Source of the DNA: Burkholderia catarinensis
GTDB taxonomy: Bacteria > Pseudomonadota > Gammaproteobacteria > Burkholderiales > Burkholderiaceae
Assembly: GCF_001883705.2 (NCBI RefSeq)
Contig: NZ_MDEQ02000007.1
Location: forward strand, 1-64,000
Length of the DNA: 64,000 nucleotides
Direction: 5' to 3'
The notes under the pieces were generated by a model. That model was not told where the DNA came from. It did no database searches and worked only from the letters and a program-made list of their open reading frames with translations. A program made the translations under genes and the position numbers. This document shows positions 19,709 through 53,749 of the stretch, piece by piece. The first letter of the stretch is position 1. Each line of letters opens with the position of its first letter.

Positions 19709-19743
19709 GCCCGCATCGACAGCATTGTCGATGCGGGCTTTTT
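19709..19743 (+). terminator. Rho-independent terminator after ybiT
   Basis: GCCCGCATCGAC (19709-19720) pairs perfectly with GTCGATGCGGGC (19727-19738) over a 6-base loop and is followed by TTTTT. It ends ybiT and isolates the gene island that starts at 19870. Confidence 0.9.
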
Positions 19744-19808: not shown

Positions 19809-19821
19809 GGGTAAATTACCC
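19809..19821. promoter_or_regulatory. small inverted repeat in the promoter of the tailoring island
   Basis: GGGTAA, one A, then TTACCC form a 6-bp inverted repeat 49 bp before the first gene of the island. TAAATT within it could act as a -10 element. It is the only promoter-like, AT-rich spot between the ybiT terminator and the start at 19870. Confidence 0.35.
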
Positions 19822-19869: not shown

Positions 19870-20619
19870 ATGCAGGACCATCCTCTTCCGCTCGACCTGT
19901 CCGGCCTTGCGCAAAGCCTGTACGCGCAGGGCACCGAGGAAGGCATCCTGTCGCGGCTGATGGAGCGGATCGCGCCCGCCAACCGCTTCTGCGTCGATAT
20001 CGGCGCGAGCGACGGCCTGCGCAACAGCAATACCGCGCGGCTGCTGCGCGAACAGGATTGGGCCGGCGTGCTGGTGGAGGGCAGTGCGTACCGGTTCGGC
20101 AAGCTGGCCGCCCACTACGCGGGCGCCGACCGTGTCCGCCTGCACCATGGCCGCGTCCAGCCCGACACGGTCGACCAGCTGCTCGCCGATGCGAACACGC
20201 CGGCCGACTTCGACCTGCTGTCGATCGACATCGACGGCAACGACTACTGGGTGTGGCGCGGCCTGCAGGCATTCGAGCCGCGCATCGTCGTGATCGAATA
20301 CAACCCGTACTACACGCCGCCCGAGCGCTGGGTCATGTGCTTCAATCCGGACCACGAATGGGATGGCTCGACCTACTACGGCGCGAGCCTCGAATCGCTC
20401 GTTCATCTCGGCAGGCAGAAGGGCTATGAACTCGTCTGCTGCGACGACATGGGCAACAACGCGTTCTTCGTACGGCAGGACCTGTACCCGCTGCTCGGCA
20501 TCGCGAACAACGATCCGTCGGTGCTGTTCCGGCCGGCGATGTACAAGCTGCGCTACATCGGGCACAACACGTTCCTGACCGGTCATCCGTATCGCCACGG
20601 GCCGGCGGAGCACATCTGA
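19870..20619 (+). CDS. FkbM-like SAM-dependent methyltransferase domain protein
   Basis: This is a 249-residue protein with a Rossmann methyltransferase core: FCVDIGASDGLRNSNTARLL (the glycine-rich SAM loop near residues 40-60), VLVEGSAYRFGKL as the acidic strand 2 end, and DFDLLSIDIDGNDYWVWRGL as motif IV. This resembles FkbM-type O-methyltransferases of glycan and natural-product clusters. The substrate is unknown. It is the first gene of a tight five-gene run; the next starts immediately after its stop codon. Confidence 0.72.
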   Translation: MQDHPLPLDLSGLAQSLYAQGTEEGILSRLMERIAPANRFCVDIGASDGLRNSNTARLLREQDWAGVLVEGSAYRFGKLAAHYAGADRVRLHHGRVQPDTVDQLLADANTPADFDLLSIDIDGNDYWVWRGLQAFEPRIVVIEYNPYYTPPERWVMCFNPDHEWDGSTYYGASLESLVHLGRQKGYELVCCDDMGNNAFFVRQDLYPLLGIANNDPSVLFRPAMYKLRYIGHNTFLTGHPYRHGPAEHI

Positions 20620-21612
20620 ATGGACCAGCCCGCCGTCATCTTCGACGAGATCCGCGCTGCCTATGCACTCGTCCAGAACGGGCCGCCGCGCCAGGTCGGC
20701 GAACGCGTGTGGCATCTGCCGACCGATGACGGCGGCGTGGCGGTCAAGCTCTATGCGCTCGATCATCATGCGCGCGCGGCCAAGGAAGCCGCCGTTCTCG
20801 CGCATTTCGACACAGACGGCGATGCGCGCTTTCGCGTGCAGACGCTGAAACGCACGACGGCCGGCGCACCGCTGTGGACGGGCCCGGGCGCGCACGCGAT
20901 GCTGACGCGCTGGGAAGCCGGGCAGTTCAGAACCTACGATACGTTTTCTCCGGCCGAATGGGATGCGCTCGGCGCGAGCCTGGCTGCATTGCACCTGAGC
21001 CTCGAGCGGCTGCATCTGCCGTCGCTCGACACGATCCGCGCGCGGCTGTCCGCGATCGATGCGGACGCAGTGCGCCGCAGCCTGCTCGACGCACTGGATC
21101 GCGCACGCTCGAACGACGGTGCCGCGAACCTGCGCCGCTATGTCGATCTCGCGCTGCGCATGCTCGACCGCTACTATCCGGGCAGCATCGACGCGTTTCC
21201 CGCCGCCGATCCGCAGCACCCGATCCACAACGACTACAACCAGTTCAACTATCTGTTCACGGGCACGCCGCCACCGCTGATCCTCGACTGGGAAGCGGCG
21301 ATCGGCGCGCCGCGCGAATACGAGCTGGTGCGTTGCCTGAATCATCTGCCGCTGGAGGCGCCGCACCTGGCTGAAGCCTTCGTGCGCGCGTATCGACGGG
21401 TCCGGCCGGTGGATCCCGCGCGCATCGCATGGGCGGTCGATGCCGCGTGTCTGCAGCACGCGCTCAAGCTCTGGATCGTGCAAGGCTGGCTCGACGATCC
21501 GTCGCGCTTTGCCGCACACCTGAACGGTGCGGTGACGATGGCGTCGGCGATGGTGGATGCGCGCGGCCGTCTCGTCGATTTCTTTTCCCGTTGCGTGGAA
21601 GCAGGAAACTGA
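20620..21612 (+). CDS. APH-fold phosphotransferase
   Basis: This is a 330-residue aminoglycoside-phosphotransferase/choline-kinase-like protein. The catalytic loop HNDYNQFNYLF (about residues 206-216) and the Mg-binding segment PLILDWEAA (about 222-230) are present; the usual HGD is replaced by HND, as in some family members. The N-lobe ATP Lys is likely in VAVKLYAL. It presumably phosphorylates a small hydroxylated intermediate of the island. ATG directly follows the previous stop codon and the next gene starts 1 bp after this one. Confidence 0.72.
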   Translation: MDQPAVIFDEIRAAYALVQNGPPRQVGERVWHLPTDDGGVAVKLYALDHHARAAKEAAVLAHFDTDGDARFRVQTLKRTTAGAPLWTGPGAHAMLTRWEAGQFRTYDTFSPAEWDALGASLAALHLSLERLHLPSLDTIRARLSAIDADAVRRSLLDALDRARSNDGAANLRRYVDLALRMLDRYYPGSIDAFPAADPQHPIHNDYNQFNYLFTGTPPPLILDWEAAIGAPREYELVRCLNHLPLEAPHLAEAFVRAYRRVRPVDPARIAWAVDAACLQHALKLWIVQGWLDDPSRFAAHLNGAVTMASAMVDARGRLVDFFSRCVEAGN

Positions 21613-21613
21613 A

Positions 21614-22492
21614 GTGAATGCGAATCCGAACAAGATCCCGAATCCGACGCCGTCCGGCGAGCGGCAGCATGTCTTTCCGCCGCCGCTGGATCGCGATTAC
21701 CGCGTCGAGGGCGGGCGTGTGCGGACGCGCTCGCTGGAAGCGCATATCGTCGATCACTGCAACCTGACCTGCGCGGAATGCTGCTCGCTGTCGCCGCTGC
21801 TGCCCGAGTGGCATGCGAGCCCCGAATCGATCGAAGCCGATCTGCGCAAGGCCGCGAAGGTGCTGAGCCCGCGCATGTTCAAGCTGGTCGGCGGCGAACC
21901 GCTGCTGCATCCGGCGCTCGTCGAACTCATCGAACGCGTGCGCAGCACGGGCATCGCACCGGTGATCTCCGTCACGACGAACGGCCTGAAGCTCGGCGAG
22001 ATGCCGGACGCGTTCTGGCAAGCGGTGGATGCGCTGACGATCTCGCGCTATCCGAAGCCGTCGCTATCGCGCGATCTGGTCGCGCATGTCGAGCACCAGG
22101 CCGCGCGCTTCGACGTGCGCCTGAACTGGAAGGTGCAGGACGTGTTCACGACGATGAATCGCGCGCAGCCCGGCACGGACCGCGACGACGCGCAACGCCT
22201 CTACCACGATTGCTGGATCCGCGAGCGCTGCCATATGATTCGCGACGGCATGTTCTACACGTGCACGCGTCCGGCGCATTTCCATACGCTCTACAAGGGC
22301 GAGAAGGATTTCCGGTCCGATGGCCTGCCGCTGCGCGACGACGCGGGCATGCTCGACGCGATGCTCGCCTATCTGCAACGCGAGGCGCCGCTCGAAGCAT
22401 GCCTGCATTGCCAGGGCGGCAGCGCGCCGGTGGCGCCGCATCGCATCCTGAAACGCATTGAAGTGGACACCTTGAAGGCTCGTTATCCATGA
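21614..22492 (+). CDS. radical SAM enzyme
   Basis: This is a 292-residue radical SAM protein with the cluster motif CNLTCAEC (CxxxCxxC, about residues 47-54) and VGGEPLLHP (about residues 92-100) as the SAM-binding GGE motif. The C-terminus has additional cysteines (CWIRERCHM, YTCTRP, CLHCQGG) that probably hold an auxiliary cluster, as in SPASM/twitch enzymes. Such enzymes tailor peptides, sugars or other small molecules. GTG 21614 was chosen over the open upstream frame because it lies 1 bp after the kinase stop. It overlaps the next gene by 4 bp (ATGA), indicating coupling. Confidence 0.78.
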   Translation: MNANPNKIPNPTPSGERQHVFPPPLDRDYRVEGGRVRTRSLEAHIVDHCNLTCAECCSLSPLLPEWHASPESIEADLRKAAKVLSPRMFKLVGGEPLLHPALVELIERVRSTGIAPVISVTTNGLKLGEMPDAFWQAVDALTISRYPKPSLSRDLVAHVEHQAARFDVRLNWKVQDVFTTMNRAQPGTDRDDAQRLYHDCWIRERCHMIRDGMFYTCTRPAHFHTLYKGEKDFRSDGLPLRDDAGMLDAMLAYLQREAPLEACLHCQGGSAPVAPHRILKRIEVDTLKARYP

Positions 22493-23550
22493 TCGTCGGC
22501 ACGCGCGACCTGTTCGGTTTCGATCGTCTGCACTACCATCCGCGCAGCGGCGTGTCGGCGTCCGGCATCCGGGCCGTACTGCATGCGTCGGGGCAACCGG
22601 CCGGCGCGCCGGACACGGCCGCCATCGCGGGCTACCTGAGCGGTGAGCGCCCCGTCAGCCGCACGGTGCTGCGCGACGTGCTCGCGGTGCCGCCCGGCCA
22701 TGCGCTAATCCGTTCAGCGCAAGGGCTGGCGGTGCAGCCGGCGCCCGAACGGCCGCGGCATGCCGATCTGGAAACCGTGCTGCGCGCGTCGCTGCAACGC
22801 GCGCTCGACAGCGGCAAACGCGTCGCACTGGCGCTGAGCGGCGGGCTCGATTCGGCGCTGCTGCTCGCGTTGCTGCGCGAACTCGGCGCACAGCGGCACG
22901 TGACGTCCTACATCCTCGCGACTGACATGCCGGACTATTGCGAACGCGATGCCGCACTCGAACTGGCCGCGCAGATGCAGGCGACGGTGAAGATCGTGCA
23001 CGCGAACGAGGCCGATTTCGTGGCGGCGCTGCCGAGAACGACCCATGCGGTCGAGGAACCGATGTTCAACCTGCATCCGGTCGCCAAGCTGCTGCTGGCC
23101 GAGGAGATGGCCGCGGACGGCATCGAGCTGGCCATCACCGGCGACGGCGCGGACCAGGTTCTGCGCCGCGACCAGTCGGCCAACTACCTGCCGCTGTGCC
23201 ATGCGTTGTTCGATGCGGCGTCGGTCGAGCTGCATCCGCCGTTTGTCGACGCCGCCGTCGTCGCGCATCTGACGAGCATCGCGCCCGACCCGAACAAGCA
23301 ATGCCTGCGCGATCTCGGCGCACGCCTGAACCTGCCTGAGCGTCTCGTGCACGGCCCCAAGCGCGGGCGGCTCGCGCCGGCGATGGACCTCGCTGCGCTG
23401 CTCGATCGCGACCGCACGCGTGCGCTGGCCGACACGCTCGGTCTGGCCGCGCCCGCGTTGCAGGCGGATACCGAACGCGTGCTGTGGACGACGCTTATGC
23501 TGCTCCTCGATCATCTCGATCACTTCGATGCCGCGCATCGCCCAACTTGA
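22489..23550 (+). CDS. asparagine synthetase-like ATP pyrophosphatase with shortened N-terminus
   Basis: This is a 353-residue protein with the asparagine synthetase synthase domain: PP-loop LALSGGLDSALLLALL (about residues 115-130), TGDGADQ and a late GPKRGR lysine segment. Full-length AsnB has a roughly 200-residue glutaminase domain with Cys at position 2. Here only about 110 residues precede the PP-loop, position 2 is Ile, and only the closing VPPGHALI of that domain is recognisable. So glutamine hydrolysis looks lost, as in beta-lactam synthetase and lasso-peptide cyclase (McjC-type) relatives, which adenylate a carboxylate for ring or amide formation. The true product is unknown. Confidence 0.75.
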   Translation: MIVGTRDLFGFDRLHYHPRSGVSASGIRAVLHASGQPAGAPDTAAIAGYLSGERPVSRTVLRDVLAVPPGHALIRSAQGLAVQPAPERPRHADLETVLRASLQRALDSGKRVALALSGGLDSALLLALLRELGAQRHVTSYILATDMPDYCERDAALELAAQMQATVKIVHANEADFVAALPRTTHAVEEPMFNLHPVAKLLLAEEMAADGIELAITGDGADQVLRRDQSANYLPLCHALFDAASVELHPPFVDAAVVAHLTSIAPDPNKQCLRDLGARLNLPERLVHGPKRGRLAPAMDLAALLDRDRTRALADTLGLAAPALQADTERVLWTTLMLLLDHLDHFDAAHRPT

Positions 23551-23557
23551 GTCGTTC

Positions 23558-24763
23558 ATGAGACGCATCCTGTTCTGCGTGGTGCCCGAAAAAGGTCACG
23601 TCAATCCCTGCATCGGCCCGGCCCAGCATCTGCGTGCCGCCGGCTGCGACGTCGCGTTCTACGCGCCGGCCGACATCAGCGCGCAACTCGACGGTGCCGG
23701 CGACTTCGCGTTCGTCGGGCCGCGCGAGACGCCCGAACGCCACGACCTGTCGCGCGGCGCGAGCTTCGCCGCGAACATCCGCGACGCCGACTGGCTGCGG
23801 CACTGGATCCGCACGCTGCTGATCGACCTCGCGCCCGCGCAGGTGGACGGCATTCGTGCGGTGCTGCGCGAATGGCAGCCCGACGTGGTCGTGATCGATC
23901 CGCTGCTGTATGCGGCGGCGATTGCCTCCGAGCTGGAAGGGCTGCCGTGGGTCGCGATGTCCAATTCGCTGAATCCGGTGCTGCCGGACGAGCTCGATTC
24001 GGAACTGCTGCGTACGGTGCGATGGCTCGCGCCGGAACGCACGCGCCTGTTCGCGCGCTACGGGCTCGACGCGCATTTTCGCGGTTGCGACATCCTGTCG
24101 CCGCATCTGACGCTCGCGTTCACGACCGACGCGCTGGTCGGCACGCCGCCGCCGGGTGTCGAACTGGTCGGCCCGGCGCTGCCGTCCGGCCCGCGCGGCG
24201 ACGAGACGCCGTTCCCGTGGGAGCGCCTCGACGCGGATCGCCCGCTCGTCTACATGTCGCTCGGCAGCCAGCTTTATTACCACCCCGATCTGTTCGCGAA
24301 GGTCGTCGATGCGATGCGCGCGACGTCGGCGCAACTGGTGCTGTCGGTGGGCGAACTGGTCGATTCGGATCTGCTGCCGGCCGACGACGAGCGCGTCGTC
24401 GCGGTGCGGTATGTGCCGCAACTGGCGCTGCTGCGGCGCACGCACGCGTTCGTCAGCCACGGCGGCGCGAATTCGGTGATGGAGTCGCTCGCGTGCGGCG
24501 TGCCGATGCTGCTGTCGCCGTTCTGCAACGACCAGTTCCATTCGGCGCACTTCGTCGAGCGGGCCGGCGCGGGATGCGTGCTGGATCTGCAGCAAGCCGG
24601 CGTGGCGGACATTGCCGACGCGCTCGAACGCCTGTTGCGTCCCGGTTCGTTGCGCGAGCAGGCGGCGCGGATCCGCGCGAGCTACGCGCGCGACGGCTCG
24701 GCGCAGGCGGCCCGCCTGATCAGCGCACTCGCTTCAGGAAGCCGCCTGGCGACAGCGTCATGA
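23558..24763 (+). CDS. GT1-family glycosyltransferase (UGT/MGT-like)
   Basis: This is a 401-residue GT-B fold enzyme similar to macrolide and rhamnosyl transferases that use nucleotide sugars on small acceptors. The N-terminus has the family start RILFCVVPEKGHVNPCIG. The donor-binding signature lies at FVSHGGANSVMESLACGVPMLLSPF, followed by NDQ (about residues 305-335). No signal or membrane segment is present. It closes the forward run; its last 44 bp overlap the 3' end of the convergent CmcI-like gene. Confidence 0.85.
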   Translation: MRRILFCVVPEKGHVNPCIGPAQHLRAAGCDVAFYAPADISAQLDGAGDFAFVGPRETPERHDLSRGASFAANIRDADWLRHWIRTLLIDLAPAQVDGIRAVLREWQPDVVVIDPLLYAAAIASELEGLPWVAMSNSLNPVLPDELDSELLRTVRWLAPERTRLFARYGLDAHFRGCDILSPHLTLAFTTDALVGTPPPGVELVGPALPSGPRGDETPFPWERLDADRPLVYMSLGSQLYYHPDLFAKVVDAMRATSAQLVLSVGELVDSDLLPADDERVVAVRYVPQLALLRRTHAFVSHGGANSVMESLACGVPMLLSPFCNDQFHSAHFVERAGAGCVLDLQQAGVADIADALERLLRPGSLREQAARIRASYARDGSAQAARLISALASGSRLATAS

Positions 24764-25409
24764 GCACGCGGTCTTCGATATCCTCGTCGACCTCGAACCG
24801 GTCGTCGCGGGCGAGAAATTCACGCACGGCCGTGGCCGGATTGTTGCCTTTGCCGTACGGCTTGCCGTCGAACATCGACTCGGGCAGGTACTCCATGATG
24901 GTGTCCATCACGATCGCGTAGCTGCCGGGCGTCACCAGTGCCGCATAGCATTCGAGTTCGCGCAGCACGTGCGCGTGCGTATGCGTGAGATCGAGGATCG
25001 CCATCACGCGCGCGCCGTCGTCGATCTGCGCGCGCACCGACGCGAGCGTGCCGGCCGCGCACGATTCGCCCTCGATCAACACCATGCGATGGGCGAGCCG
25101 GTGCGATTGCAGGCGCTGCCTGACCTCGTCGCGCAGGCGCGGTTCGATCGCAACGACGCGGCCGTGGCCACCCGTCAATTCCAGCATCGACGCGGAGAAC
25201 ACGACGCCGCCGCCCGCCGCGATGCCGGTCTGCACGATGCAGTCGGGGCGCTCGCGCCAGATCAGTTCCTGGAGCGCGAGCATGTCGCCGGGCAGATGGA
25301 AGAAGCGCTCGCCGAGCCAGCGCGTCTGGAACAGATGGTCGAATTCGGCGGCTCGCGTCAGCCATTCGATGTTGATGTCCCGCATGCGGGCCGAAGGACG
25401 CTCTGACAT
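24720..25409 (-). CDS. CmcI-like cephalosporin hydroxylase / rhamnosyl O-methyltransferase family protein
   Basis: This 229-residue protein belongs to the PF04989 family (CmcI of cephamycin clusters, RhmT-like sugar O-methyltransferases), which is a SAM methyltransferase fold. Family features are FDHLFQTRWLGERFFHLPGDMLALQELIW, VQTGIAAGGGVVFSASML (SAM loop), VVAIEPRLR and ILDLTHTHAHVLRELECY (metal-site acidic and His residues), and MDTIMEYLPESMF. ATG 25409 was chosen; TTG 25415 and ATG 25385 are alternatives. It is convergent with the glycosyltransferase and divergent from the second kinase gene. Confidence 0.8.
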   Translation of the reverse strand: MSERPSARMRDINIEWLTRAAEFDHLFQTRWLGERFFHLPGDMLALQELIWRERPDCIVQTGIAAGGGVVFSASMLELTGGHGRVVAIEPRLRDEVRQRLQSHRLAHRMVLIEGESCAAGTLASVRAQIDDGARVMAILDLTHTHAHVLRELECYAALVTPGSYAIVMDTIMEYLPESMFDGKPYGKGNNPATAVREFLARDDRFEVDEDIEDRVLMTLSPGGFLKRVR

Positions 25410-25434
25410 GGTCAATGCAACGAGTAGGAGTGAC

Positions 25435-26400
25435 GTGAAAACGCTGGAACCGTGGCTTCACCGGTACTGGAACATCGCGCCGGCGCGCCTGCAGGCGCTG
25501 GCATCGGGCCATACTAACAAAACGTATCTCGTCGAGTGCGATGCGGGACGCGCGGTGCTGCGCGTGTCGTGGTCCGGCAAGCCGGTCGGGCAGGTGCATC
25601 GCGAGGCGTCGATACTTGGGCGTCTCGGCCATTCGCGCACGGCGCCGATGCTGCCCGCGCTGCCGCGGCTGCGGCCAACCGTCGACGCGCAGTCCGGTGT
25701 GCAGGCCCCCGATGGAAGCTGGCTGCACCTGTTCGAGCATATCGACGGCAATCCCGGCCTGCCCGGCGATGCGCAGGCGGGCGCGATCGATGCGATGCGT
25801 ACGCTGGCGCATCTGCATGCGGCACTGGCGGCGATACCCGTGAGCGAATCGGCGCCGCTGACGTGGCTGTCGGCACGTCATGCGCGCGTGTCGGCACGTG
25901 CGATGCCGTCGTTGCCGGGCGACTTGAACAGTCGCTACGAGACGATGATCCGGCGGATCGGCGCGCATCTCGACGCCGCCGCACGCTGGCTGACGGGGCC
26001 GGTGCATTGGCTGCACGGCGACTATCACGCGGGCAACCTGCTTTATGTAGGCAGCGCGGTGAGCGGCGTGCTGGATTTCGACGATGTCGGGCAGGGCGCG
26101 CAGTGGCTCGAGGCGGCCTTTGCGCTGTTCGCGCTGTCGCGCGATGCGGGCAGGGACGATCGCTTCGTATTCGATGCGCGGCGATGGGAAGCCGGCCTGC
26201 ACGCGTATGCAGCGACGCGGCGCGATGCCGCGCCGGGCTGGATGCGCGAGCACCGCGAAGCGCTGACGGGCCTGTTCTGCGCGGACCAGACGTTGATCCA
26301 TCTCGAAGCCGCGCAGCGCGGCCTGTGGATGCCGGGGCCCGGCATCGGCTTTCTCGGTGGCTGGCGGCAGTTGCTGGACAGTGCGGCGCCCGGCGGCTAG
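25435..26400 (+). CDS. APH-fold phosphotransferase (second in the island)
   Basis: This is a 321-residue aminoglycoside-phosphotransferase-like kinase. The catalytic loop LHGDYHAGNLLY (about residues 190-201) and Mg site GVLDFDDVGQGAQW (about 208-221) are canonical. The N-lobe opening LASGHTNKTYLVECDAGRAVLRVSW holds the Gly-rich and Lys-type elements. GTG 25435 has AGGAG 4 bases upstream; ATG 25408 in frame would add nine residues and shares its CATG with the CmcI-like gene's start on the other strand. It differs from the kinase at 20620, so the island has two unrelated copies of the fold. Confidence 0.78.
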   Translation: MKTLEPWLHRYWNIAPARLQALASGHTNKTYLVECDAGRAVLRVSWSGKPVGQVHREASILGRLGHSRTAPMLPALPRLRPTVDAQSGVQAPDGSWLHLFEHIDGNPGLPGDAQAGAIDAMRTLAHLHAALAAIPVSESAPLTWLSARHARVSARAMPSLPGDLNSRYETMIRRIGAHLDAAARWLTGPVHWLHGDYHAGNLLYVGSAVSGVLDFDDVGQGAQWLEAAFALFALSRDAGRDDRFVFDARRWEAGLHAYAATRRDAAPGWMREHREALTGLFCADQTLIHLEAAQRGLWMPGPGIGFLGGWRQLLDSAAPGG

Positions 26401-26412
26401 GCGGCCGTTGCG

Positions 26413-26988
26413 TCAGTGCTTCCGGTTCAGGAACAGGCGCACGGCTTCGACCGTGTTGGGCCGCGCTTCGCCGCGCCGCGATCCGTCGTGCATGCAGAAC
26501 AGCACGTCGCGATGCCGCGCCGCGCCGGCGTCGGCATGCGCGCACATCGCGTCGAACAGCGCCTGCGGCGACGGCGCGGGCCGCTGCCAGTCGTCCAGTA
26601 TCGCGGTCCAGCCCGTATGTTCGCGCTGCAGGCGCGCAAGCACGGCGGCGCGATTGTCCTGCGGCATCAGCCCGTACGGAAGGCGCAGCGGGATCGCGTC
26701 CGGCGCGGGAATGCCGGCTGCGCGATAGGCGTCGCGAATCAGCGCGTCGGTTGCATCGATCTCGTCGATCAGCGCGTCGTCCGCCAGCGTGCCCGGCCTC
26801 GCGTGCGAATGGGTGTGATTGCCGAGCCGGTGGCCGTCGCGCGCCATTCTCGCCGCGACGTCGAGCGCGCCCGCCAGGTTCTTGCCGAGCAGGAAGAAGG
26901 TCGCTTGGCACGACGCGGCGTGCAGGACGTCGAGCAAGGAGGGCGTCGACGGGCCGGGGCCGTCGTCGAAACTGAAGTGGATTGACAT
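26413..26988 (-). CDS. polysaccharide deacetylase (NodB-like)
   Basis: This 191-residue CE4 enzyme removes acetyl groups from N-acetylated glycans or small amides. The metal and catalytic residues are visible: FSFDDGPG (about residues 5-12, catalytic Asp pair), HTHSH (about residues 58-62, metal His pair), LRLPYG in place of the usual RxPYG, and CMHD at the end (His acid). No signal peptide is present, so it probably acts in the cytoplasm on a biosynthetic intermediate. It is convergent with the kinase gene, 12 bp apart. Confidence 0.83.
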   Translation of the reverse strand: MSIHFSFDDGPGPSTPSLLDVLHAASCQATFFLLGKNLAGALDVAARMARDGHRLGNHTHSHARPGTLADDALIDEIDATDALIRDAYRAAGIPAPDAIPLRLPYGLMPQDNRAAVLARLQREHTGWTAILDDWQRPAPSPQALFDAMCAHADAGAARHRDVLFCMHDGSRRGEARPNTVEAVRLFLNRKH

Positions 26989-33298: not shown

Positions 33299-34393
33299 AT
33301 GAAAGCAAAGGTAGTGGGCCGGTTCGCAGCGCTCGCGCTGTGCGTGGGTGCATCGGCGGCAGCGGCGAAGGATACGCAGCTCAATGTCTATAACTGGTCG
33401 GACTACATTGCGAAGGACACGATCCCGAACTTCGAGAAGCAGGCGGGCGTCAAGGTCCGCTACGACAACTACGACAGCGACGACACGCTGCAGGCGAAGC
33501 TGCTGACGGGCAGCTCGGGCTACGACATCGTCGTGCCGACCAGCAACTACGCGGGCAAGCAGATCGCCGCCGGCATCTTCGCGCCGCTCGACAAGTCGAA
33601 GCTCCCGAACCTCAAGTACCTCGATCCGCAGCTGATGGCGCTCGTCGCCGGCGCGGACCCGGGCAACAAGTTCTCGGTGCCCTGGGCGTACGGCACGACG
33701 GGTCTCGCGTACAACCTGACGAAGGCGCAGCAGGCGCTCGGCAAGGTGCCGCTCGACAACTGGGACATCCTGTTCAAGCCGGAAAACCTGTCGAAGCTGA
33801 AGACCTGCGGCGTGTCGGTGCTCGACGCACCCGACCAGATGTTCGCGGCGGCGCTGCACTACATCGGCAAGGATCCGATGAGCACGAATCCGGCCGACTA
33901 CAAGGCCGCGATGGAAGTGCTGAAGAAGATCCGCCCGTACATCACGCAATTCAACTCGTCGGGCTACATCAACGACCTGGTCGGCGGCGACATCTGCTTC
34001 GCGTTCGGCTGGTCGGGCGACGTCGTGATCGCGAAGCATCGCGCGATCGAAGCGAAGAAGGCCTACAAGATCGAGTACTACATCCCGAAGGGCGGCGCGC
34101 CGGTCTGGTTCGACGTGATGGCGATCCCGAAGGACGCGAAGAACAAGGATGCCGCGCTGCAGTGGATCAACTACATCGAGGATCCGAAGGTGCACGCGGC
34201 GATCACGAACGCGGTGTACTACCCGAGCGCCAACGCCGAGGCACGCAAGTACGTGCGGCCCGACGTCGCGAACGATCCGGCCGTCTACCCGCCGGCCGAC
34301 GTCGTGAAGACGCTGTTCCTGCTCAAGCCGCTGCCGCCTGAAATCCAGCGCCTGCAGACGCGTCTGTGGACCGAGCTGAAGTCGGGCCGCTGA
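33299..34393 (+). CDS. potF: putrescine ABC transporter substrate-binding protein
   Basis: This is a 364-residue periplasmic binding protein for putrescine or a related polyamine. Signal peptide 1-23 ends ASAAAA. LNVYNWSDYIAKDTIPNFEKQAGVKVRYD is the standard PotF/PotD opening, and the mature length fits. PotF-type ligand residues such as YNWSDY and the late Trp/Asp cluster (VWFDVMAIPKDAKN) are in place. It heads the potFGHI operon; an 86-bp gap with a hairpin separates it from potG, which would let the binding protein be made in excess. Confidence 0.93.
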   Translation: MKAKVVGRFAALALCVGASAAAAKDTQLNVYNWSDYIAKDTIPNFEKQAGVKVRYDNYDSDDTLQAKLLTGSSGYDIVVPTSNYAGKQIAAGIFAPLDKSKLPNLKYLDPQLMALVAGADPGNKFSVPWAYGTTGLAYNLTKAQQALGKVPLDNWDILFKPENLSKLKTCGVSVLDAPDQMFAAALHYIGKDPMSTNPADYKAAMEVLKKIRPYITQFNSSGYINDLVGGDICFAFGWSGDVVIAKHRAIEAKKAYKIEYYIPKGGAPVWFDVMAIPKDAKNKDAALQWINYIEDPKVHAAITNAVYYPSANAEARKYVRPDVANDPAVYPPADVVKTLFLLKPLPPEIQRLQTRLWTELKSGR

Positions 34394-34421
34394 CGCGAGC
34401 CGGCGTTCCCCAGCAGTCATG

Positions 34422-34448
34422 AAGCCCCTGGTGCCCCCGGGGGCTTTG
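34422..34448 (+). terminator. hairpin between potF and potG (possible attenuator)
   Basis: AAGCCCC (34422-34428) pairs with GGGGCTT (34440-34446), with an inner CCCC-rich loop, followed by TGTT. It lies 29 bp after potF. With a short, interrupted T run it is more likely a partial terminator or RNA-stability element than a full stop. Confidence 0.5.
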
Positions 34449-34479
34449 TTCGTCAAACGCAGGAGAGAAGCAGCACATC

Positions 34480-35640
34480 ATGAATAGCCAGTCGGGTGCG
34501 CCGGTCGCGGGCGCACCGTCCACCGTTTCCTTCTCCGGCGCCGATGCGCGCGCCGAGAACTTTGTCCAGATCGTCGACGTCGTCAAGAAATTCGGCGATA
34601 CCGAAGCCGTGCGCAGCGTCAACCTGACCGTGCGCCAGGGCGAACTGTTCGCGCTGCTCGGCAGCTCGGGCTGCGGCAAGTCGACGTTGCTGCGGATGCT
34701 CGCGGGCCTCGAGACGGTCACGTCGGGCAAGATCCTGATCGACGGCGAGGATCTCGCGCAGATGCCGCCGTACAAGCGGCCCGTGAACATGATGTTCCAG
34801 TCGTATGCGCTGTTCCCGCACATGTCGGTCGAGTCGAACGTCGCGTTCGGGCTCAAACAGGAAGGCGTGCCGCGCGCCGAGATGAAGGAGCGCGTGCACG
34901 CGGCGCTCGAACTCGTGCAGATGAGCAAGTACGCGAAGCGCAAGCCGCACCAGCTGTCGGGCGGCCAGCAGCAGCGCGTCGCGCTCGCGCGTTCGCTCGT
35001 CAAGCGCCCGAAGCTGCTGCTGCTCGACGAGCCGATGTCCGCGCTCGACAAGCAGATCCGCCAGCGCACGCAGATCGAGCTCGTCAACATCCTGAACAGG
35101 GTCGGCGTCACCTGCATCATGGTCACGCACGACCAGGAAGAAGCGATGACGATGGCGAACCGCCTCGCGGTGATGAGCGAAGGGCAGATCGTCCAGATCG
35201 GCTCGCCGAATGAAGTGTACGAGTATCCGAACAGCCGCTTCTCGGCCGAGTTCATCGGTTCGACGAACCTGTTCGACGGCGTGACCGTCGAGGATGAACC
35301 CGACCACGTGTACATCGAATCGCCGGAACTGCCGAGCCGGCTGTACGTGAGCCACGGGATCTCGGGCCCGCTCGGGATGCCGGTCACGGTATCGGTGCGC
35401 CCCGAACGGATCGCGCTCACGCGCAAGCCGCCCGAAGGCGCGTTCAACTGGGCGCGCGGCAGGATCGGCAACGTCGCGTACATGGGCGGCTATTCGCTGT
35501 ATCACGTGAGGCTCGACGCGGGCAAGACGGTGATCGCGAACGTGTCGAGCCTCGCGATTTCCGAGCTCGACACGCCGGCGCTCGGCGACGAGATCTACGT
35601 GCGCTGGAGCGCGACCGCGGGCGTGGTGCTGACGTCATGA
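34480..35640 (+). CDS. potG: putrescine ABC transporter ATP-binding protein
   Basis: This 386-residue ATPase energises the PotFGHI importer. Walker A GSSGCGKST, signature LSGGQQQR, Walker B LLLLDEPMSALD and switch His in VTHDQEEAM are present. The C-terminal TOBE-type regulatory domain (VSVRPERIAL) follows. Its stop overlaps the potH start by 4 bp. Confidence 0.94.
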   Translation: MNSQSGAPVAGAPSTVSFSGADARAENFVQIVDVVKKFGDTEAVRSVNLTVRQGELFALLGSSGCGKSTLLRMLAGLETVTSGKILIDGEDLAQMPPYKRPVNMMFQSYALFPHMSVESNVAFGLKQEGVPRAEMKERVHAALELVQMSKYAKRKPHQLSGGQQQRVALARSLVKRPKLLLLDEPMSALDKQIRQRTQIELVNILNRVGVTCIMVTHDQEEAMTMANRLAVMSEGQIVQIGSPNEVYEYPNSRFSAEFIGSTNLFDGVTVEDEPDHVYIESPELPSRLYVSHGISGPLGMPVTVSVRPERIALTRKPPEGAFNWARGRIGNVAYMGGYSLYHVRLDAGKTVIANVSSLAISELDTPALGDEIYVRWSATAGVVLTS

Positions 35641-36563
35641 CCCCGTTCAAGTCCATGCTCTCGTGGCCGGTGCGGCGCTTCAACCTGACGGGCGCCACGG
35701 CGGTCGTCGCGGGGCCGTTCACGTGGCTCGTGCTGTTCTTCCTCGTGCCGTTCGTGCTGGTCGTCAAGATCAGCTTCGCGGAGCTGCAGCTCGGCATCCC
35801 GCCGTACACGGAACTCGCGTCGTACGCCGACGGCGTCGTGCACGTCGCGCTGAACCTGTCGCACTACGCGTTCCTGTTCACGGACAGCCTGTATTTCGCG
35901 ACCTACGTGAACTCGGTGTGGGTGGCCGCGATCACGACGCTGCTGTGCCTGCTGATCGGCTATCCGATGGCGTACTACATCGCGCGCTCGAACCCGGCGA
36001 CGCGCAACCTGCTGATGATGGGCGTGATGCTGCCGTTCTGGACGTCGTTCCTGATCCGCGTGTACGCATGGATCGGCATCCTGAAGAACAACGGCCTGCT
36101 GAACAACTTCCTGATGTGGATCGGGCTGACCCATACGCCGATCGAGCTGTACCGCACGAACTACGCGGTGTACATCGGGATGGTGTATTCGTACCTGCCG
36201 TTCCTCGTGATGCCGCTCTACGCGCACCTCGTGAAGATGGACCTGCGCCTGCTCGAAGCCGCGTACGACCTAGGAGCTAAGCCGTGGAAGGCGTTCGTGC
36301 AGATCACGTTGCCGCTGTCGAGGAACGGGATCATCGCGGGCTGCCTGCTCGTGTTCATCCCGGCGGTGGGCGAGTACGTGATTCCGGAGCTGCTCGGCGG
36401 CGCGAACACGCTGATGATCGGCCGCGTGATGTGGAATGAGTTCTTCAACAACGCAGACTGGCCGATGGCATCGGCGGTGACCTGTGCGATGGTGCTGCTG
36501 CTGCTCGTGCCGATGGCGATGTTCCAGCGTTCCCAGGCAAAGGAGCAGGAGGGCCGTCGATGA
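35637..36563 (+). CDS. potH: putrescine ABC transporter permease PotH
   Basis: This is a 308-residue inner-membrane permease with about six helices. The EAA-type coupling loop is EAAYDLGAKPWKAFVQITLPLSRNGIIAG (about residues 205-233). Coupled by 4-bp overlaps to potG and potI. It pairs with PotI to form the channel. Confidence 0.93.
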   Translation: MTPFKSMLSWPVRRFNLTGATAVVAGPFTWLVLFFLVPFVLVVKISFAELQLGIPPYTELASYADGVVHVALNLSHYAFLFTDSLYFATYVNSVWVAAITTLLCLLIGYPMAYYIARSNPATRNLLMMGVMLPFWTSFLIRVYAWIGILKNNGLLNNFLMWIGLTHTPIELYRTNYAVYIGMVYSYLPFLVMPLYAHLVKMDLRLLEAAYDLGAKPWKAFVQITLPLSRNGIIAGCLLVFIPAVGEYVIPELLGGANTLMIGRVMWNEFFNNADWPMASAVTCAMVLLLLVPMAMFQRSQAKEQEGRR

Positions 36564-37381
36564 AGCCGAATCGTTACCTGCAGTTCGCGGCGCTGTTTGC
36601 CGGCTTCGCGTTCCTGTACATCCCGATCATCAGCCTGATCGTCTATTCGTTCAACGAGTCGAAGCTCGTCACCGTGTGGTCGGGCTTCTCGTTGCGCTGG
36701 TACACGGCGCTCGTCCAGGACGACGAGCTGCTGACGGCCGCGTGGCTGTCGCTGAAGATCGGCGTGCTGACCGCGTTCGCGTCGGTGTTCATCGGCACGT
36801 GGGCCGGCTTCGTGCTCGCGCGGATGGGGCGCTTTCGCGGCTTCGCGCTGTTCAGCGGGATGATCAATGCGCCGCTCGTGATTCCCGAGGTGATCCAGGG
36901 GATCTCGCTGCTGCTGCTGTTCATCGAGCTGGCGAAGTGGATCGGCTGGCCGGCCGAACGCGGGGTCTTCACGATCTGGCTCGGCCACGTGATGCTGTGC
37001 ATCTCGTACGTCGCGATCATCGTGCAGTCGCGCGTGCGCGAGCTGAACCCGTCGCTGGAGGAAGCCGCGCTCGATCTTGGCGCGACGCCGCTGAAGGTGT
37101 TCTTCACGATCACGCTGCCGTTGATCTCGCAGGCGCTGGTCGCGGGCTGGCTGCTGTCGTTCACGCTGTCGATCGACGATCTCGTGCTGTCGGCGTTCCT
37201 GTCGGGCCCCGGCTCGACGACGCTGCCGCTCGTCGTGTTCTCGCGCGTGCGCCTCGGGCTGAACCCGGAAATGAACGCGCTCGCGACGCTGTTCATCGTC
37301 GCGGTGACGGCGGGTGTCGTGATCGCGAACTTCGTGATGCTGCGTCAAGAGCGCAAGCGGATGGCGGGGTTCGCGGCCTGA
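36560..37381 (+). CDS. potI: putrescine ABC transporter permease PotI
   Basis: This 273-residue permease is the second channel subunit. The coupling loop reads EEAALDLGATPLKVFFTITLPLISQALVAG (about residues 167-196), with roughly six membrane helices around it. It is the last gene of the pot operon and is followed by a terminator shared with the convergent gene. Confidence 0.93.
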   Translation: MKPNRYLQFAALFAGFAFLYIPIISLIVYSFNESKLVTVWSGFSLRWYTALVQDDELLTAAWLSLKIGVLTAFASVFIGTWAGFVLARMGRFRGFALFSGMINAPLVIPEVIQGISLLLLFIELAKWIGWPAERGVFTIWLGHVMLCISYVAIIVQSRVRELNPSLEEAALDLGATPLKVFFTITLPLISQALVAGWLLSFTLSIDDLVLSAFLSGPGSTTLPLVVFSRVRLGLNPEMNALATLFIVAVTAGVVIANFVMLRQERKRMAGFAA

Positions 37382-49314: not shown

Positions 49315-52300
49315 TCAGGCTCCCGACGGCGCGGCCGGCGTGCTGCCGCCCTGCGGCGGGCCATCCTGCGGGTCGCGTTCGTCGCGCTTCACGCGGAACC
49401 ACGTCGCATACAGCGCGGGCAGGTAGAACAGCGTCAGCACGGTAGCGCTCGTGATGCCGCCCATCAGCGCGGTCGCCATCGGCCCGAAGAAGTTCGAGCG
49501 CAAGAGCGGGATCAGCGCGAGCACGGCGGCCGCGGCCGTCAGCGTGATCGGGCGGAAGCGCCGCACGGTCGCGCCGATGATCGCGTCGATCCGGCCGTGG
49601 CCGACCGCGATGTCCTGCTCGATCTGGTCGACGAGGATCACCGAGTTGCGCATGATGATCCCGAACATCGCGATCACGCCGAGCATCGCGACGAAGCCGA
49701 ACGGCTGGCCGAACAGCAGCAGCGTGGCGACCACGCCGATCAGCCCGAGCGGCGCGGTCAGCACGACCATCAGCACGCGCGAGAAGCTCTGCAGCTGGAT
49801 CATCAGCAGCGTGAACACGGCGATCGCCATCAGCGGCATCTGCGCATTGATCGATTTCTGCGCCTTCGCGCTTTCCTCGACCGAGCCGCCGATGTTGATC
49901 TGATAGCCGACCGGCAACTGCGCGCGCAGCGCGTTCAGCTTCGCGTCGACCGCATGCGTGACGTCGATGCCCTGCGCGCCGGCGCGCACGTCCGATTGCA
50001 CGGTGATGGTCGGCTGGCGGTTGCGTTCCCACACGACGCCGTATTCGAGCGTCGGCTTGAAGCGGCCGAGCGAGCCGAGCGGCACGGGGCCGTTCGGGGT
50101 CGGCAGCGCGAGGCCCGCCAGCTCCGCGGGGTCGACGCGATCGGCCCGCGGCGCGCGCAGGTCGACCGCGATCAGCTTGTCGCGTTCGCGGTACTGCGTG
50201 ACGGTCGTGCCGGACAGCGTCATCGCGAGGAAGCTCGACACGTCCTGCGACGTGACGTTCAGCTCGCGCGCCTTCTTCTGGTCGATCTCGAAGCGCACCG
50301 AGCGCTCGGCCGGCTCGTCCCAGTCGAACTGCACGTTCACCGTGCGCGTGTCATCGCGCATCGTCGCCGCGACTTTCTCGGCGATCGAGCGGACCGTCGC
50401 GATGCTGTCGCCGCTCACGCGGAACTGCACCGGATAGCCGACCGGCGGGCCGTTCTCGAGCCGCGACAGCCGCCAGCGCACGGCCGGGAACCGGTCGCGC
50501 AGCGTGGTTTCGAGCCAGGTCGCGAGCTTTTCGCGATCCTCGACCGATTTCGCGGTGATCACGAACTGCGCGAAGTTCGGCAGTTGCAACTGCTGGTCGA
50601 GCGGCAGGTAGAAGCGCGGCGCGCCGCTGCCGACGAAGTTCACCGAATGATCGATCTCGGGGCGCTTGTCGATCACCTTCTCGAAGCGTTCGGTCTCGCG
50701 CAGCGTCGCCGCGAACGATGCGCCCTCGGGCAGCCGCAGGTCGACCAGCAGTTCGGGCCGGTCGGAACTCGGGAAGAACTGCTGCGGGACCAGCGAGAAG
50801 CCCATCAGCGACACGACGAACAGGGCACCCGTGATCAGCAGCACGACGAAGCGCCGCTCGATGCACCAGTCGATCCAGCCGCGCAGCCGCCGGTAGAAGC
50901 GCGTGTCGTAGATGTCGTGCTCGTGGTCGTCGGGCAGGTGCGCCTCGTGCGCGTGCCGCTTGCGCTCGGGCAGCAGGTGGTAGCCGAGCAGCGGGATCAG
51001 CACGACGGCCGCGAACCACGACGCGATCAGCGCGATCGCCGACACCTCGAAGATCGAGCGCGTGTATTCGCCGGTGCTCGATTTGGCGAGCGCGATCGGC
51101 AGGAAGCCCGACACGGTGACGAGCGTGCCCGTCAGCATCGGGAACGCGGTGCTCGTATAGGCGAACGCGGCGGCGCGCGCGCGGCTGTAGCCCTGTTCGA
51201 GCTTCACGGCCATCATCTCTACCGCGATGATCGCATCGTCGACGAGCAGCCCGAGCGCGAGCACGAGCGTGCCGAGCGACACCTTGTGCAGCCCGATGTC
51301 GAACAGGTACATGAAGAGGGCGGTGACCGCGAGCACGACGGGGATCGAGATCACGACGACCATCCCGGTGCGCAGGCCGAGCGACACGAGGCTCACGACC
51401 AGCACGATCGCGATGGCCTCGGCGACGGCTTCGAGGAAATCGTCGACCGAATGCGCGACCGCGTGCGGCATGCTCGACACCAGGGTCAGCTTGAGACCGG
51501 CCGGCAGTTGCGCCTGCAGGCCCTTCGATTCCGCATCGAGCGCGTTGCCGAGCCGGATCACGTCGCCGCCCGGCTGCATCGTGACGCCGATGCCGAGCAC
51601 CGCCCGGCCGTTCGCACGCATTTGCGTAACGGCCGGATCGTCGTAGCCGCGCTTTACCGTCGCGAGATCGCCGAGCCGGAACGTGCGGCCGTTGATGCGG
51701 ATCAGCGTATCGGCGATCGCGTCGACGTTGTCGAACTGGCCGCTCGGCCGCACGAACACGCGATCGTCGGCGGTGGTCAGCACGCCGGCCGACGAGATGT
51801 CGTTCTGCGCGTTGATCGCCTGCCCGAGCTGCTGCGGCGAGATGCCGAGGCGTGTGAGCTGCGCGTTGTTCACCTCGATGAAGATCCGCTGGTCGGGGTC
51901 GCCGAAGTAGTCGACCTTGCCGACGCCCGGCACGCGCAGCAGCACGGTACGCAACTGGTCGGCGTAGTCGTGGAGCTGCGCAGGCGTGAAGCCGTCGCCT
52001 TCGAGCGTCCAGATGTTGGTGTAGACGTCGCCGAATTCGTCGTTGAAGAACGGACCCTGCACGCCGGGCGGCAGCGTATAGCCGATGTCGCCGACCTTCT
52101 TGCGGATCTGGTACCAGGTCTCGGGCACGTCCTTCACGGGCGCCGAATCCTTCATCGTGAAAAAGATCAGCGATTCGCCGGGGCGCGAATAGCTGCGCAG
52201 GAAGTCGATGGCCGGCGTTTCCTGCAGTTTGCGGCCGATCCGGTCGGTCACCTGTTCCTGCACCTGGCGCGCACTCGCGCCGGGCCAGAACGTGCGGATC

Positions 52301-52464
52301 ACCATCACGCGGAACGTGAACGGCGGGTCCTCGGACTGCGCGAGCCGCGTGTACGCGAGCATGCCCGCGAGCGTCGCGAGCGCGATCAGGTAGACGACGA
52401 GCGCCTGGTGGCGCAGCGCCCACGCCGACAGGTTGAACCGGCCTTCTTCGCGGGGGGCGCTCAC
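49315..52464 (-). CDS. RND efflux pump inner-membrane transporter
   Basis: This 1049-residue proton-driven pump has the twelve-helix RND layout with two large periplasmic loops. The helix-4 segment GLLVDDAIIAVEMMAVKLE supplies the proton-relay Asp pair; GFLPIALAKSSTGEYTRS and VLILVDQIEQDIA-like segments follow the family. It is closer to the heavy-metal-unlike, NodT-partner branch than to AcrB (opening SAWALRHQALVVYLIALATLAGMLAYTRLAQSEDPPFTFR). GTG 52464 overlaps the adaptor stop by 4 bp and has GGAGG upstream. Confidence 0.93.
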   Translation of the reverse strand: MSAPREEGRFNLSAWALRHQALVVYLIALATLAGMLAYTRLAQSEDPPFTFRVMVIRTFWPGASARQVQEQVTDRIGRKLQETPAIDFLRSYSRPGESLIFFTMKDSAPVKDVPETWYQIRKKVGDIGYTLPPGVQGPFFNDEFGDVYTNIWTLEGDGFTPAQLHDYADQLRTVLLRVPGVGKVDYFGDPDQRIFIEVNNAQLTRLGISPQQLGQAINAQNDISSAGVLTTADDRVFVRPSGQFDNVDAIADTLIRINGRTFRLGDLATVKRGYDDPAVTQMRANGRAVLGIGVTMQPGGDVIRLGNALDAESKGLQAQLPAGLKLTLVSSMPHAVAHSVDDFLEAVAEAIAIVLVVSLVSLGLRTGMVVVISIPVVLAVTALFMYLFDIGLHKVSLGTLVLALGLLVDDAIIAVEMMAVKLEQGYSRARAAAFAYTSTAFPMLTGTLVTVSGFLPIALAKSSTGEYTRSIFEVSAIALIASWFAAVVLIPLLGYHLLPERKRHAHEAHLPDDHEHDIYDTRFYRRLRGWIDWCIERRFVVLLITGALFVVSLMGFSLVPQQFFPSSDRPELLVDLRLPEGASFAATLRETERFEKVIDKRPEIDHSVNFVGSGAPRFYLPLDQQLQLPNFAQFVITAKSVEDREKLATWLETTLRDRFPAVRWRLSRLENGPPVGYPVQFRVSGDSIATVRSIAEKVAATMRDDTRTVNVQFDWDEPAERSVRFEIDQKKARELNVTSQDVSSFLAMTLSGTTVTQYRERDKLIAVDLRAPRADRVDPAELAGLALPTPNGPVPLGSLGRFKPTLEYGVVWERNRQPTITVQSDVRAGAQGIDVTHAVDAKLNALRAQLPVGYQINIGGSVEESAKAQKSINAQMPLMAIAVFTLLMIQLQSFSRVLMVVLTAPLGLIGVVATLLLFGQPFGFVAMLGVIAMFGIIMRNSVILVDQIEQDIAVGHGRIDAIIGATVRRFRPITLTAAAAVLALIPLLRSNFFGPMATALMGGITSATVLTLFYLPALYATWFRVKRDERDPQDGPPQGGSTPAAPSGA

Positions 52465-53570
52465 GATGCGAAGTCCTCCGGATGCAGCGGCGCGATCGGG
52501 CGTACCTTCTCGCCCGCGCTGACCGTATGCACGCCCTGCAGCACGACGCGTTCGCCGGGCTGCAACCCGTGCGACACCGTCACGGTGCGCTCGTTGAAGC
52601 GCGCGACGTCGACGCGGCGCAGTTCGAGCGTGTCGTCCTTCGTGCGCACGACCCATACGGCCGGTTGCGCGCCGTCGTGGAACAGCGCGGTCGCGGGCAG
52701 CGTGATCGGCTGCGCGTCGCCGGCGGCCGGCGTGCCGTCGAACGCAACGCTGGCCGTCATCCCGAGGCGGATCGCCGGATCGGGTGCGGCGAGCGTGAGC
52801 TTCACGCGATACGTGCGGCTCTGCGGATCGGCGGCCGGCGCGATTTCGCGCACCTTCGCGGCGAACTGGCGGCCCGGCAGCGACGGCATCGTGACGGTCG
52901 CCGCGTGGCCGGACGCGAGCGACGCGAGCGCGGCCTCGGGCACGTCGCTGACGACATCGACGTCGCCGGACCATGCGAGCTGGTAGACGGGCTGGCCGGC
53001 CGACACGTTCTGGCCGGTGTCGGCCTGTTCGGCGGTGATATAGCCCGCGTGATCGGCGACGAGCGTCGCGTAGCGGAGCTGGTTCTTCGCAAGCGCGAGC
53101 TGCTGCTGCGCCTGGTCGCGCTGTGCGAGCGCCGACGTGTAGCTGTTCTCGGTCTGTTCGAGCTGCGCGGTCGCGATCAGGTTTTCGCGCGCCTGCGCGC
53201 GGTCGCGGTCGAGCTGCTGCTTCGCGAACGCGAGGCTGTGCGTTGCGGCATCGAGCTGCGCCTGCGCGCTCGCGGCGTTTTTCTCGACGTCGGACGGATC
53301 GAGCAGCGCGACGACCTGGCCGACCTTGACCGTATCGCCGAGGCGCACCTTGCGCTCGATGAGCTTGCCGGCGATGCGGAACGACAGCGGTGTTGCGTAG
53401 CGCGGCTGGATTTCGCCGGGGAGCGTGCGCGCGGCCGCGGCGGCGTCGGCATGCGCGGGCAGCGCGACGACGGGGCGCGGCGCGGGCGGCGCGGATTCTT
53501 TTGGATGACAGGCGGCAAGGACAAACGCGGCGCCGATCAGCAGCGCGGCGCGGGAACCGGAGCGATTCAC
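52461..53570 (-). CDS. RND efflux periplasmic adaptor (membrane fusion protein)
   Basis: This 369-residue lipoprotein adaptor links pump and channel. Lipobox LAAC at about residues 17-20. The lipoyl half (GKLIERKVRLGDTVKVGQVVALLDPSDVEKN) opens an alpha-hairpin coiled coil (about residues 85-170), and the second lipoyl half is VADHAGYITAEQADTGQNVSAGQPVYQL. The beta-barrel and membrane-proximal domains complete the length. GTG 53570 puts the lipobox close to the N-terminus; a longer frame to 53696 reads promoter DNA. Confidence 0.92.
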   Translation of the reverse strand: MNRSGSRAALLIGAAFVLAACHPKESAPPAPRPVVALPAHADAAAAARTLPGEIQPRYATPLSFRIAGKLIERKVRLGDTVKVGQVVALLDPSDVEKNAASAQAQLDAATHSLAFAKQQLDRDRAQARENLIATAQLEQTENSYTSALAQRDQAQQQLALAKNQLRYATLVADHAGYITAEQADTGQNVSAGQPVYQLAWSGDVDVVSDVPEAALASLASGHAATVTMPSLPGRQFAAKVREIAPAADPQSRTYRVKLTLAAPDPAIRLGMTASVAFDGTPAAGDAQPITLPATALFHDGAQPAVWVVRTKDDTLELRRVDVARFNERTVTVSHGLQPGERVVLQGVHTVSAGEKVRPIAPLHPEDFAS

Positions 53571-53680
53571 GAAACCCCCAGGTGAGGTGGAGCGGAACGA
53601 AGCCGGCAAGCGCGGCGGGCGCTTGCCCCAAGCGGCGCCGGGATGGGCGCGCGGACGATATCTTTGGGAAACTGTGGTGA

Positions 53681-53710
53681 ATTCTAATACACACATGTAT
53701 CCGAATGCAA
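53681..53710 (-). promoter_or_regulatory. promoter of the RND operon with embedded TetR operator
   Basis: On the minus strand -35 TTGCAT (53705-53710) and -10 TAGAAT (53681-53686) are 18 bp apart. Between them ATACA (53687-53691), CACA, TGTAT (53696-53700) is an inverted repeat, so a repressor there would block the promoter. The divergent TetR gene starts at 53750. Confidence 0.6.
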
Positions 53711-53749
53711 AGATGAATCCGAAAGGTAAAGGGTGCTAGACTGCGCGGC

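Follow-up and report, generated by a model that had tools for sequence, protein, structure and literature searches.

The window analysed here, a 64,000-nucleotide stretch of Burkholderia catarinensis (contig NZ_MDEQ02000007.1, positions 1 to 64,000), contains at 19870-26988 a cassette of eight enzyme genes, g1 to g8. The eight genes form one genuine conserved unit, far beyond chance, and occur in identical order and orientation in 39/39 complete loci. The cassette is read here, with as much confidence for as against, as a self-contained set of eight enzymes for a small aminosugar glycoside that would be epimerised, methylated and amide-bearing, resembling the tailoring part of aminoglycoside pathways and with no cyclitol-building genes. 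Its radical S-adenosylmethionine (SAM) enzyme, g3, is placed beside HygY and SpeY.

One conserved unit of eight genes

The folds that an earlier sequence-only reading had given to the eight genes are confirmed, each scoring above its Pfam gathering cut-off. From g1 to g8 the families are PF05050, PF01636, PF04055, PF00733, PF00201, PF04989, PF01636 (aminoglycoside phosphotransferase, APH), and PF01522. In NCBIfam no listed family reaches its cut-off for any of the eight (for g3, among the best 25 of 28 families), and thus none carries a named function. As the same reading had stated, there is no transporter, polymerase, non-ribosomal peptide synthetase (NRPS), or polyketide synthase (PKS) in the cassette: none of these families in Pfam or NCBIfam is matched by the eight proteins.

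Genes g1 to g5 are on the plus strand, followed by g6 (minus), g7 (plus), and g8 (minus). The tight spacing claimed for the first five is exact from the coordinates, with a gap of 0 bases at g1/g2, a gap of 1 at g2/g3, an overlap of 4 at g3/g4, and a gap of 7 at g4/g5. Genes g5 and g6 are tail-to-tail with a coding overlap of 44 bases (24720-24763). The preferred starts, read from the sequence, are ATG 25409 for g6 and GTG 25435 for g7, the latter with AGGAG upstream. The two genes are divergent, and since only about 25 bases separate the likely starts (25409-25435), their promoters probably lie inside one another's coding sequence.

The complete loci are the window, L033-L061, L077, L079-L084, L097, and L098. 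They comprise, besides the window, 29 Burkholderia relatives, 3 loci of Paraburkholderia or a neighbouring genus, 1 of Trinickia, 1 of Chitinasiproducens, and 4 of Bordetella. L077 is a Paraburkholderia metagenome-assembled genome, L082 is Trinickia soli, L084 is Chitinasiproducens palmae, and L079, L080, L081, and L083 are Bordetella, while L097 and L098 belong to one further genus. L099 and L100 repeat the genomes of L084 and L082 and are counted once. The sequence-only reading had taken the genes for a single pathway-like unit and had proposed comparing their order across Burkholderia and beyond; the genes do not scatter, and all eight are found together across genera.

Within the genus, g4 is present in 31/65 genomes, at full length in 30 and split across two contigs in one (G050). 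Genes g1 and g6 are present in exactly those 31 genomes (single-gene searches in this set covered g1, g4, and g6). Twenty-nine of the 30 other g4 genomes were examined, the split one being omitted; order and orientation are kept in 29/29, with open frames of the expected length. Scanning named genomes with the aligned g3 sequences gives 23 loci, several of them from genomes of the genus set; in 22 the full set of eight is in order, and the remaining one (L075) ends inside g4 at the boundary of its stretch. The family-wide search finds g3 in 34/398 genomes and 4/25 genera, and its four hits outside the genus (L097-L100) all contain the full set in order. An order-wide search with g4 (E 1e-20, 300 genomes) and a phylum-wide search with g3 (E 1e-12, 398 genomes) each return the genome's own copy only, which, in an even draw with few close relatives, indicates rarity and not absence. 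In the plasmid collection, a search at E 1e-8 finds no relative of P0004 or P0002.

The junctions are conserved as well. The g3/g4 overlap of 4 bases and the g5/g6 overlap of exactly 44 bases are each present in 37/37 loci, the latter across genera, and the g1/g2 junction is 0 bases in 34/37. These counts leave out L097 and L098, and the start codons at the other junctions, being chosen by script, are less certain. Ratios of nonsynonymous to synonymous substitution rates (dN/dS) range from 0.08 to 0.48 and are below 1 in 32/32 comparisons (8 genes with 4 relatives). The mean is lowest for g1, g5, and g6, and highest for g7 and g8.

A division of the cassette, with g1-g5 as one pathway and g6-g8 as unrelated neighbours, is scarcely credible. 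Because g6 and g8 are on the opposite strand, g1-g5 and g6-g8 do not form a single transcription unit. However, in 39/39 loci g6-g8 come after g5 with order and orientation unchanged, even though the outer flanks differ between genera, and g6 shares its 31 genus genomes with g1 and g4; both observations contradict a bystander role.

In a tree of 23 loci from the joined alignment, a Bordetella clade and a main Burkholderia-group clade each have 100% support. Each clade is recovered in 7/8 single-gene trees; g7 breaks the Bordetella clade and g3 the main Burkholderia-group clade. A recent one-off import is rejected in view of the 39 loci, the two clades kept in 7/8 gene trees, and a G+C content close to that of the surroundings.

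The radical SAM enzyme g3 and its relatives

The g3 gene (21614..22492, plus strand; PF04055) encodes a twitch-type radical SAM enzyme that, by its sequence, belongs to the HygY/SpeY group. A g3 profile finds a single solved sequence at E <=0.001, namely 7wzv (E 5.5e-40, positions 26-281), and the match is full-length. We take 7wzv, like 7wzx and 7x0b, to be SpeY, the spectinomycin dehydrogenase. Searched as a single protein, g3 also matches cytosylglucuronate decarboxylase, viperins, and MoaA, more weakly and only in part. A role as an anti-phage viperin (PADLOC pVip) was considered and rejected: the match covers residues 42-144 only (E 1.4e-11), and NF038283 gives 37 bits against a cut-off of 180. 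Among the NCBIfam models, HpnH matches at E 7e-4, and HpnJ does not appear in the 25 best-scoring of 28 families.

Across 72,556 plasmid records (E 1e-10), the sole g3 relative is in Streptomyces sp. SAT1, at 35-37% identity. In its locus, L086 (plasmid NZ_CP016083.1, 819479-840523), aph(7'')-Ia, predicted in the record itself at 94.9%, lies about 9 kb from the radical SAM gene. The locus also encodes two DegT aminotransferases and a pair of glycosyltransferases, together with an epimerase/dehydratase, a HAD hydrolase, and a galactose-1-phosphate uridylyltransferase. From these genes L086 is read as a hygromycin-B-like cluster. It lies at the very end of the linear 840-kb plasmid record. The radical SAM gene of L086 and the solved 7wzv are the only g3 relatives found outside Burkholderiales.

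The catalytic motifs of g3 are intact. The cluster-binding motif CX3CX2C is present in 40/40 copies, as are C200, C206, C217, C263, and C266. Four of these (C200, C217, C263, and C266) align with cysteines in both 7wzv and the L086 protein and are candidate ligands of an auxiliary cluster. Cys206 (in RCH) aligns with Cys183 (in WRCH) of the Streptomyces protein, but with a serine in 7wzv. HygY presumably belongs to the hygromycin B pathway, and we assume that its catalytic cysteine is Cys183. Because Cys206 falls at this position, g3 is predicted, from one residue and two outside sequences, to be a sugar-carbinol epimerase. A single cysteine would then discriminate epimerase from dehydrogenase. 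By its title, a paper cited in PMC10991966 and PMC10863075 presents HygY as a twitch radical SAM epimerase in which the mutation of one cysteine gives dehydrogenase activity (Besandre et al. 2021).

The same pathway could instead contain g3 as a SpeY-like dehydrogenase that yields a keto sugar. The best solved relative of g3, with its presumed dehydrogenase function, speaks for this. The cysteine present in every copy where 7wzv has serine, and its agreement with the protein of the hygromycin-like locus, speak against it and make a dehydrogenase improbable.

The other enzymes and the proposed pathway

The g4 gene (22489..23550, plus strand; PF00733, E 9.3e-26) is predicted to encode an asparagine-synthetase-like, ATP-dependent amide ligase without glutaminase. 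It matches the asparagine synthetase model TIGR01536 from model position 137 onward only. The glutaminase cysteine, Cys2, is found in 0/39 copies, whereas the PP-loop SGGLDS is in 39/39. A conserved lysine in the stretch G-x-K-R/Q-G-R is present in 36/36 relatives examined and corresponds to K291 (GPKRGR) in the window. The lack of a glutaminase domain suggests that g4 joins its own amine substrate and does not use glutamine-derived ammonia. In Bordetella ansorpii g4 is longer, with 418 amino acids in L080 (10828-12084) and 401 in L081 (10828-12033) against about 350, and the extra length is partly an insert near the N-terminus.

A second possibility raised by the sequence-only reading was a ribosomally synthesised and post-translationally modified peptide (RiPP). 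In such a pathway the radical SAM enzyme, an asparagine-synthetase-like cyclase, and the methyltransferases would act on the short product of a neighbouring gene. RiPP pathways often include radical SAM enzymes and methyltransferases, and g4 faintly resembles the lasso cyclases (model NF033535, E 4.6e-8; 32 bits, where the cut-off is 525). The gene neighbourhood argues otherwise. Among nine loci compared, no open reading frame (ORF) of at least 40 amino acids in the flanks is common to all (E 1e-8). Of 406 ORFs of 20-150 amino acids within 2 kb (E 0.01), none is matched in more than two other loci, and the scores are weak; the best match is an upstream stretch common to L077 and L082. Nor do the eight proteins match any RiPP-recognition-element-type or protease model in Pfam or NCBIfam. 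A RiPP is therefore very unlikely, and, as no flank ORF is common to the nine loci, no companion transporter, regulator, or precursor peptide is seen travelling with the cassette.

The g5 gene (23558..24763, plus strand; PF00201, E 4.5e-20) encodes a GT1 glycosyltransferase of the macrolide glycosyltransferase (MGT) type. Its match to the macrolide model TIGR01426 (E 2.6e-39) is below the cut-off, and its solved relatives include YjiC and the oleandomycin and CalG glycosyltransferases. The g8 gene (26413..26988, minus strand; PF01522, E 3.8e-21) encodes a short, NodB-like CE4 deacetylase. The motifs FDDGP, RxPY, and GNHxxxH, the last with the metal-binding HxxxH, are each present in 39/39 copies. 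NodB (TIGR04243) is its best NCBIfam match (E 1.1e-20), at 74 bits against a cut-off of 240, and g8 is not a NodB equivalog.

Two proteins have methyltransferase folds. The g6 gene (24720..25409, minus strand; PF04989, E 8.9e-62) is of the CmcI/rhamnosyl O-methyltransferase type, and passes the curated cut-off of RMNT_CmcI PF04989 with 208.9 bits against 23.2. The g1 gene (19870..20619, plus strand; PF05050, E 1.2e-6) encodes an FkbM-type methyltransferase-fold protein, with the motifs GASDG, DxDGNDYW, and ExNPYY in 40/40 copies. Two further genes, g2 (20620..21612, plus strand; PF01636, E 2.6e-12) and g7 (25435..26400, plus strand; PF01636, E 1.3e-20), encode APH-fold kinases. HxDx4N and DWE are present in 40/40 copies of g2, and HxDx4N and DFDD in 39/39 copies of g7. 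The g7 gene of Bordetella L079 (14282-15532) has inserted runs of D-T and T-G repeats that are absent from the other eight aligned copies.

The sequence-only reading had expected a small molecule or glycan to be glycosylated, methylated, and phosphorylated, and the gene contents fit this. In the proposed pathway to an aminosugar glycoside, g5 would glycosylate an acceptor, probably with an N-acetylhexosamine, and g8 would then strip the N-acetyl group. One sugar carbinol centre would be inverted by g3, with Cys206 returning the hydrogen. The g4 enzyme may activate a carboxylate with ATP and couple it to an amine, for which the group exposed by g8 is a candidate. Hydroxyls would be methylated by g1 and g6, and g2 and g7 may phosphorylate intermediates or the product, either in building or in self-protection.

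Several points weigh against this pathway. Methyl transfer by g1 is not certain because its Pfam FkbM match is weak and below the NCBIfam cut-off. Both kinases match the APH-family models of NCBIfam only generally, and the best NCBIfam match of g7 is homoserine kinase, below the cut-off. The g7 gene is also the least conserved of the eight, and its match is incomplete in L079 and L083. By Pfam, the cassette has neither an aminotransferase nor a cyclitol synthase, and it lacks a nucleotide-sugar gene and an exporter. The other seven cassette proteins have no match in the 21-kb hygromycin-like Streptomyces stretch (E 0.01), so the aminoglycoside analogy depends on one enzyme. The loci were collected through g3 or g4, and outside the genus versions lacking both would escape. 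The acceptor, the substrate, the order of the steps, and the product are what we infer.

The main rival is that the cassette decorates a surface glycan or glycolipid, such as lipopolysaccharide, capsule, or a hopanoid-like lipid, with g5 adding a sugar, g8 deacetylating it, g3 epimerising it, and g1 and g6 methylating it. The enzymes do look sugar-directed, and the cassette is without an exporter. Relatives of g1 occur in 11 plasmid records, and in both of the two loci viewed they have GDP-mannose, UDP-glucuronate, and glycosyltransferase genes around them. In the hopanoid enzymes HpnI, HpnK, and HpnJ, a sugar transfer, a deacetylation, and a radical SAM step follow the same scheme. Against this, Pfam identifies no membrane protein, flippase, or polymerase in the cassette, which has no nucleotide-sugar gene either, and no flank gene is common to the nine loci. 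Moreover, g5 is nearest to the small-molecule MGT type, and the nearest known relatives of g3 are in aminoglycoside pathways (L086 and the presumed SpeY, 7wzv). Surface decoration is thus rather unlikely, although it is the strongest competitor to the aminosugar glycoside.

The aminosugar glycoside pathway would not make the cassette an aminoglycoside cluster. A cyclitol-forming enzyme and a sugar aminotransferase are absent from the eight genes, and no flank gene is common to the nine loci (the search for them covered the cassette and its flanks). Since, in addition, g3 is the one protein with a relative in that hygromycin-like stretch, the cassette is, judged on its genes, not a member of the aminoglycoside clusters. 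It may, as a more doubtful extension, represent a new family of aminoglycoside-like pseudo-oligosaccharides, epimerised and amide-bearing, built on primary-metabolite sugars without a dedicated cyclitol pathway, and inherited or passed as one block across Burkholderia, Paraburkholderia, Trinickia, Chitinasiproducens, and Bordetella. In the open-licence literature, as covered by titles and the starts of abstracts, no description of such a cassette was found. If the proposal is true, nearly half of the genus genomes examined (31/65) carry an uncharacterised pathway without PKS or NRPS signatures, which the usual rules based on core enzymes may therefore overlook. HygY-type radical epimerisation, which to our knowledge comes only from Streptomyces antibiotics, would also be extended into Proteobacteria.

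Genomic surroundings and comparison with known systems

In the window, the cassette has an ABC-F ATPase gene on one side, and on the other two small genes and then a gene for an aldehyde dehydrogenase. Among 29 genus stretches, each of at most 19.5 kb, the ABC-F gene is matched in 22 and the dehydrogenase in 17. Some genus stretches have additional DNA between the cassette and these neighbours, and L061 has neither neighbour. Of the 34 cassette-free genus genomes, 15 were searched for the aldehyde dehydrogenase, and it was found in 13. No cassette gene is matched at E 1e-5 in these 13 stretches, while the ABC-F gene is also within the stretch in 11 of them. In the cassette-free L105 the ABC-F gene is only about 270 bases from the next kept gene. 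Genomes without the cassette can thus retain its neighbour genes.

Beyond the genus, the flanks are not the same. When the nine loci are compared at nucleotide level, long shared flanks appear only among Bordetella L080, L081, and L083. L077 and L082 share an 81-base upstream match, L079 has a diverged flank match of 222-335 bases with L080 and L081, and there are a few further matches of 40-60 bases. The flank proteins (ORFs of at least 40 amino acids, E 1e-8) give eight pairwise matches, the best at 41% between two Bordetella and the others at 26-35%.

A promoter-like element, GGTAAATTA, is located on the plus strand at 19810..19818, 60 bases upstream of g1. The corresponding motif, GGTAMATTW, is found in 35/40 upstream regions, 38 to 91 bases before the g1 start, and has 1 match in the window against 0.11 expected. 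The five loci without it are the four Bordetella loci (L079, L080, L081, and L083) and Chitinasiproducens L084. A perfect inverted repeat with five T at 19709-19743, after the ABC-F gene, is terminator-like; its stem is present in 20/40 upstream regions, and some others have different hairpins.

Elsewhere in the window, an ATP-binding cassette (ABC) importer operon at 33299-37381 comprises a solute-binding protein, an ATPase with a TOBE domain, and two permeases. The longest ORF (49315-53751, 1478 amino acids) matches an AcrB-type resistance-nodulation-division (RND) efflux pump. Because the match covers residues 445-1449 only, the true start is probably well inside the ORF.

Compared with known systems, the cassette enzymes show partial likenesses. 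NodB, the chitooligosaccharide deacetylase, is closest to g8, which shares its metal-binding and RxPY motifs but has less than a third of the bits that the NodB cut-off demands (74 against 240). Asparagine synthetase B has given rise to amide-ligase offshoots such as beta-lactam synthetase and the lasso cyclases. With this enzyme g4 shares the synthetase half, SGGLDS, and the conserved lysine; it differs in lacking the glutaminase and in having GDGADQ in place of the usual GEGADE. The hopanoid set HpnI-HpnK-HpnJ of Burkholderia is alike in the logic of its steps, but its glycosyltransferase and deacetylase families are different from those of the cassette. The presumed SpeY structure 7wzv is matched by g3 over its full length, but has serine at the HygY Cys183 position where g3 has cysteine. 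The hygromycin-like locus as a whole differs, as it matches none of the other seven cassette proteins, and the cassette is without cyclitol or aminotransferase genes. Its HygY-like protein, in contrast, has the same features as g3, namely CX3CX2C, four further cysteines, and a cysteine at position 183.

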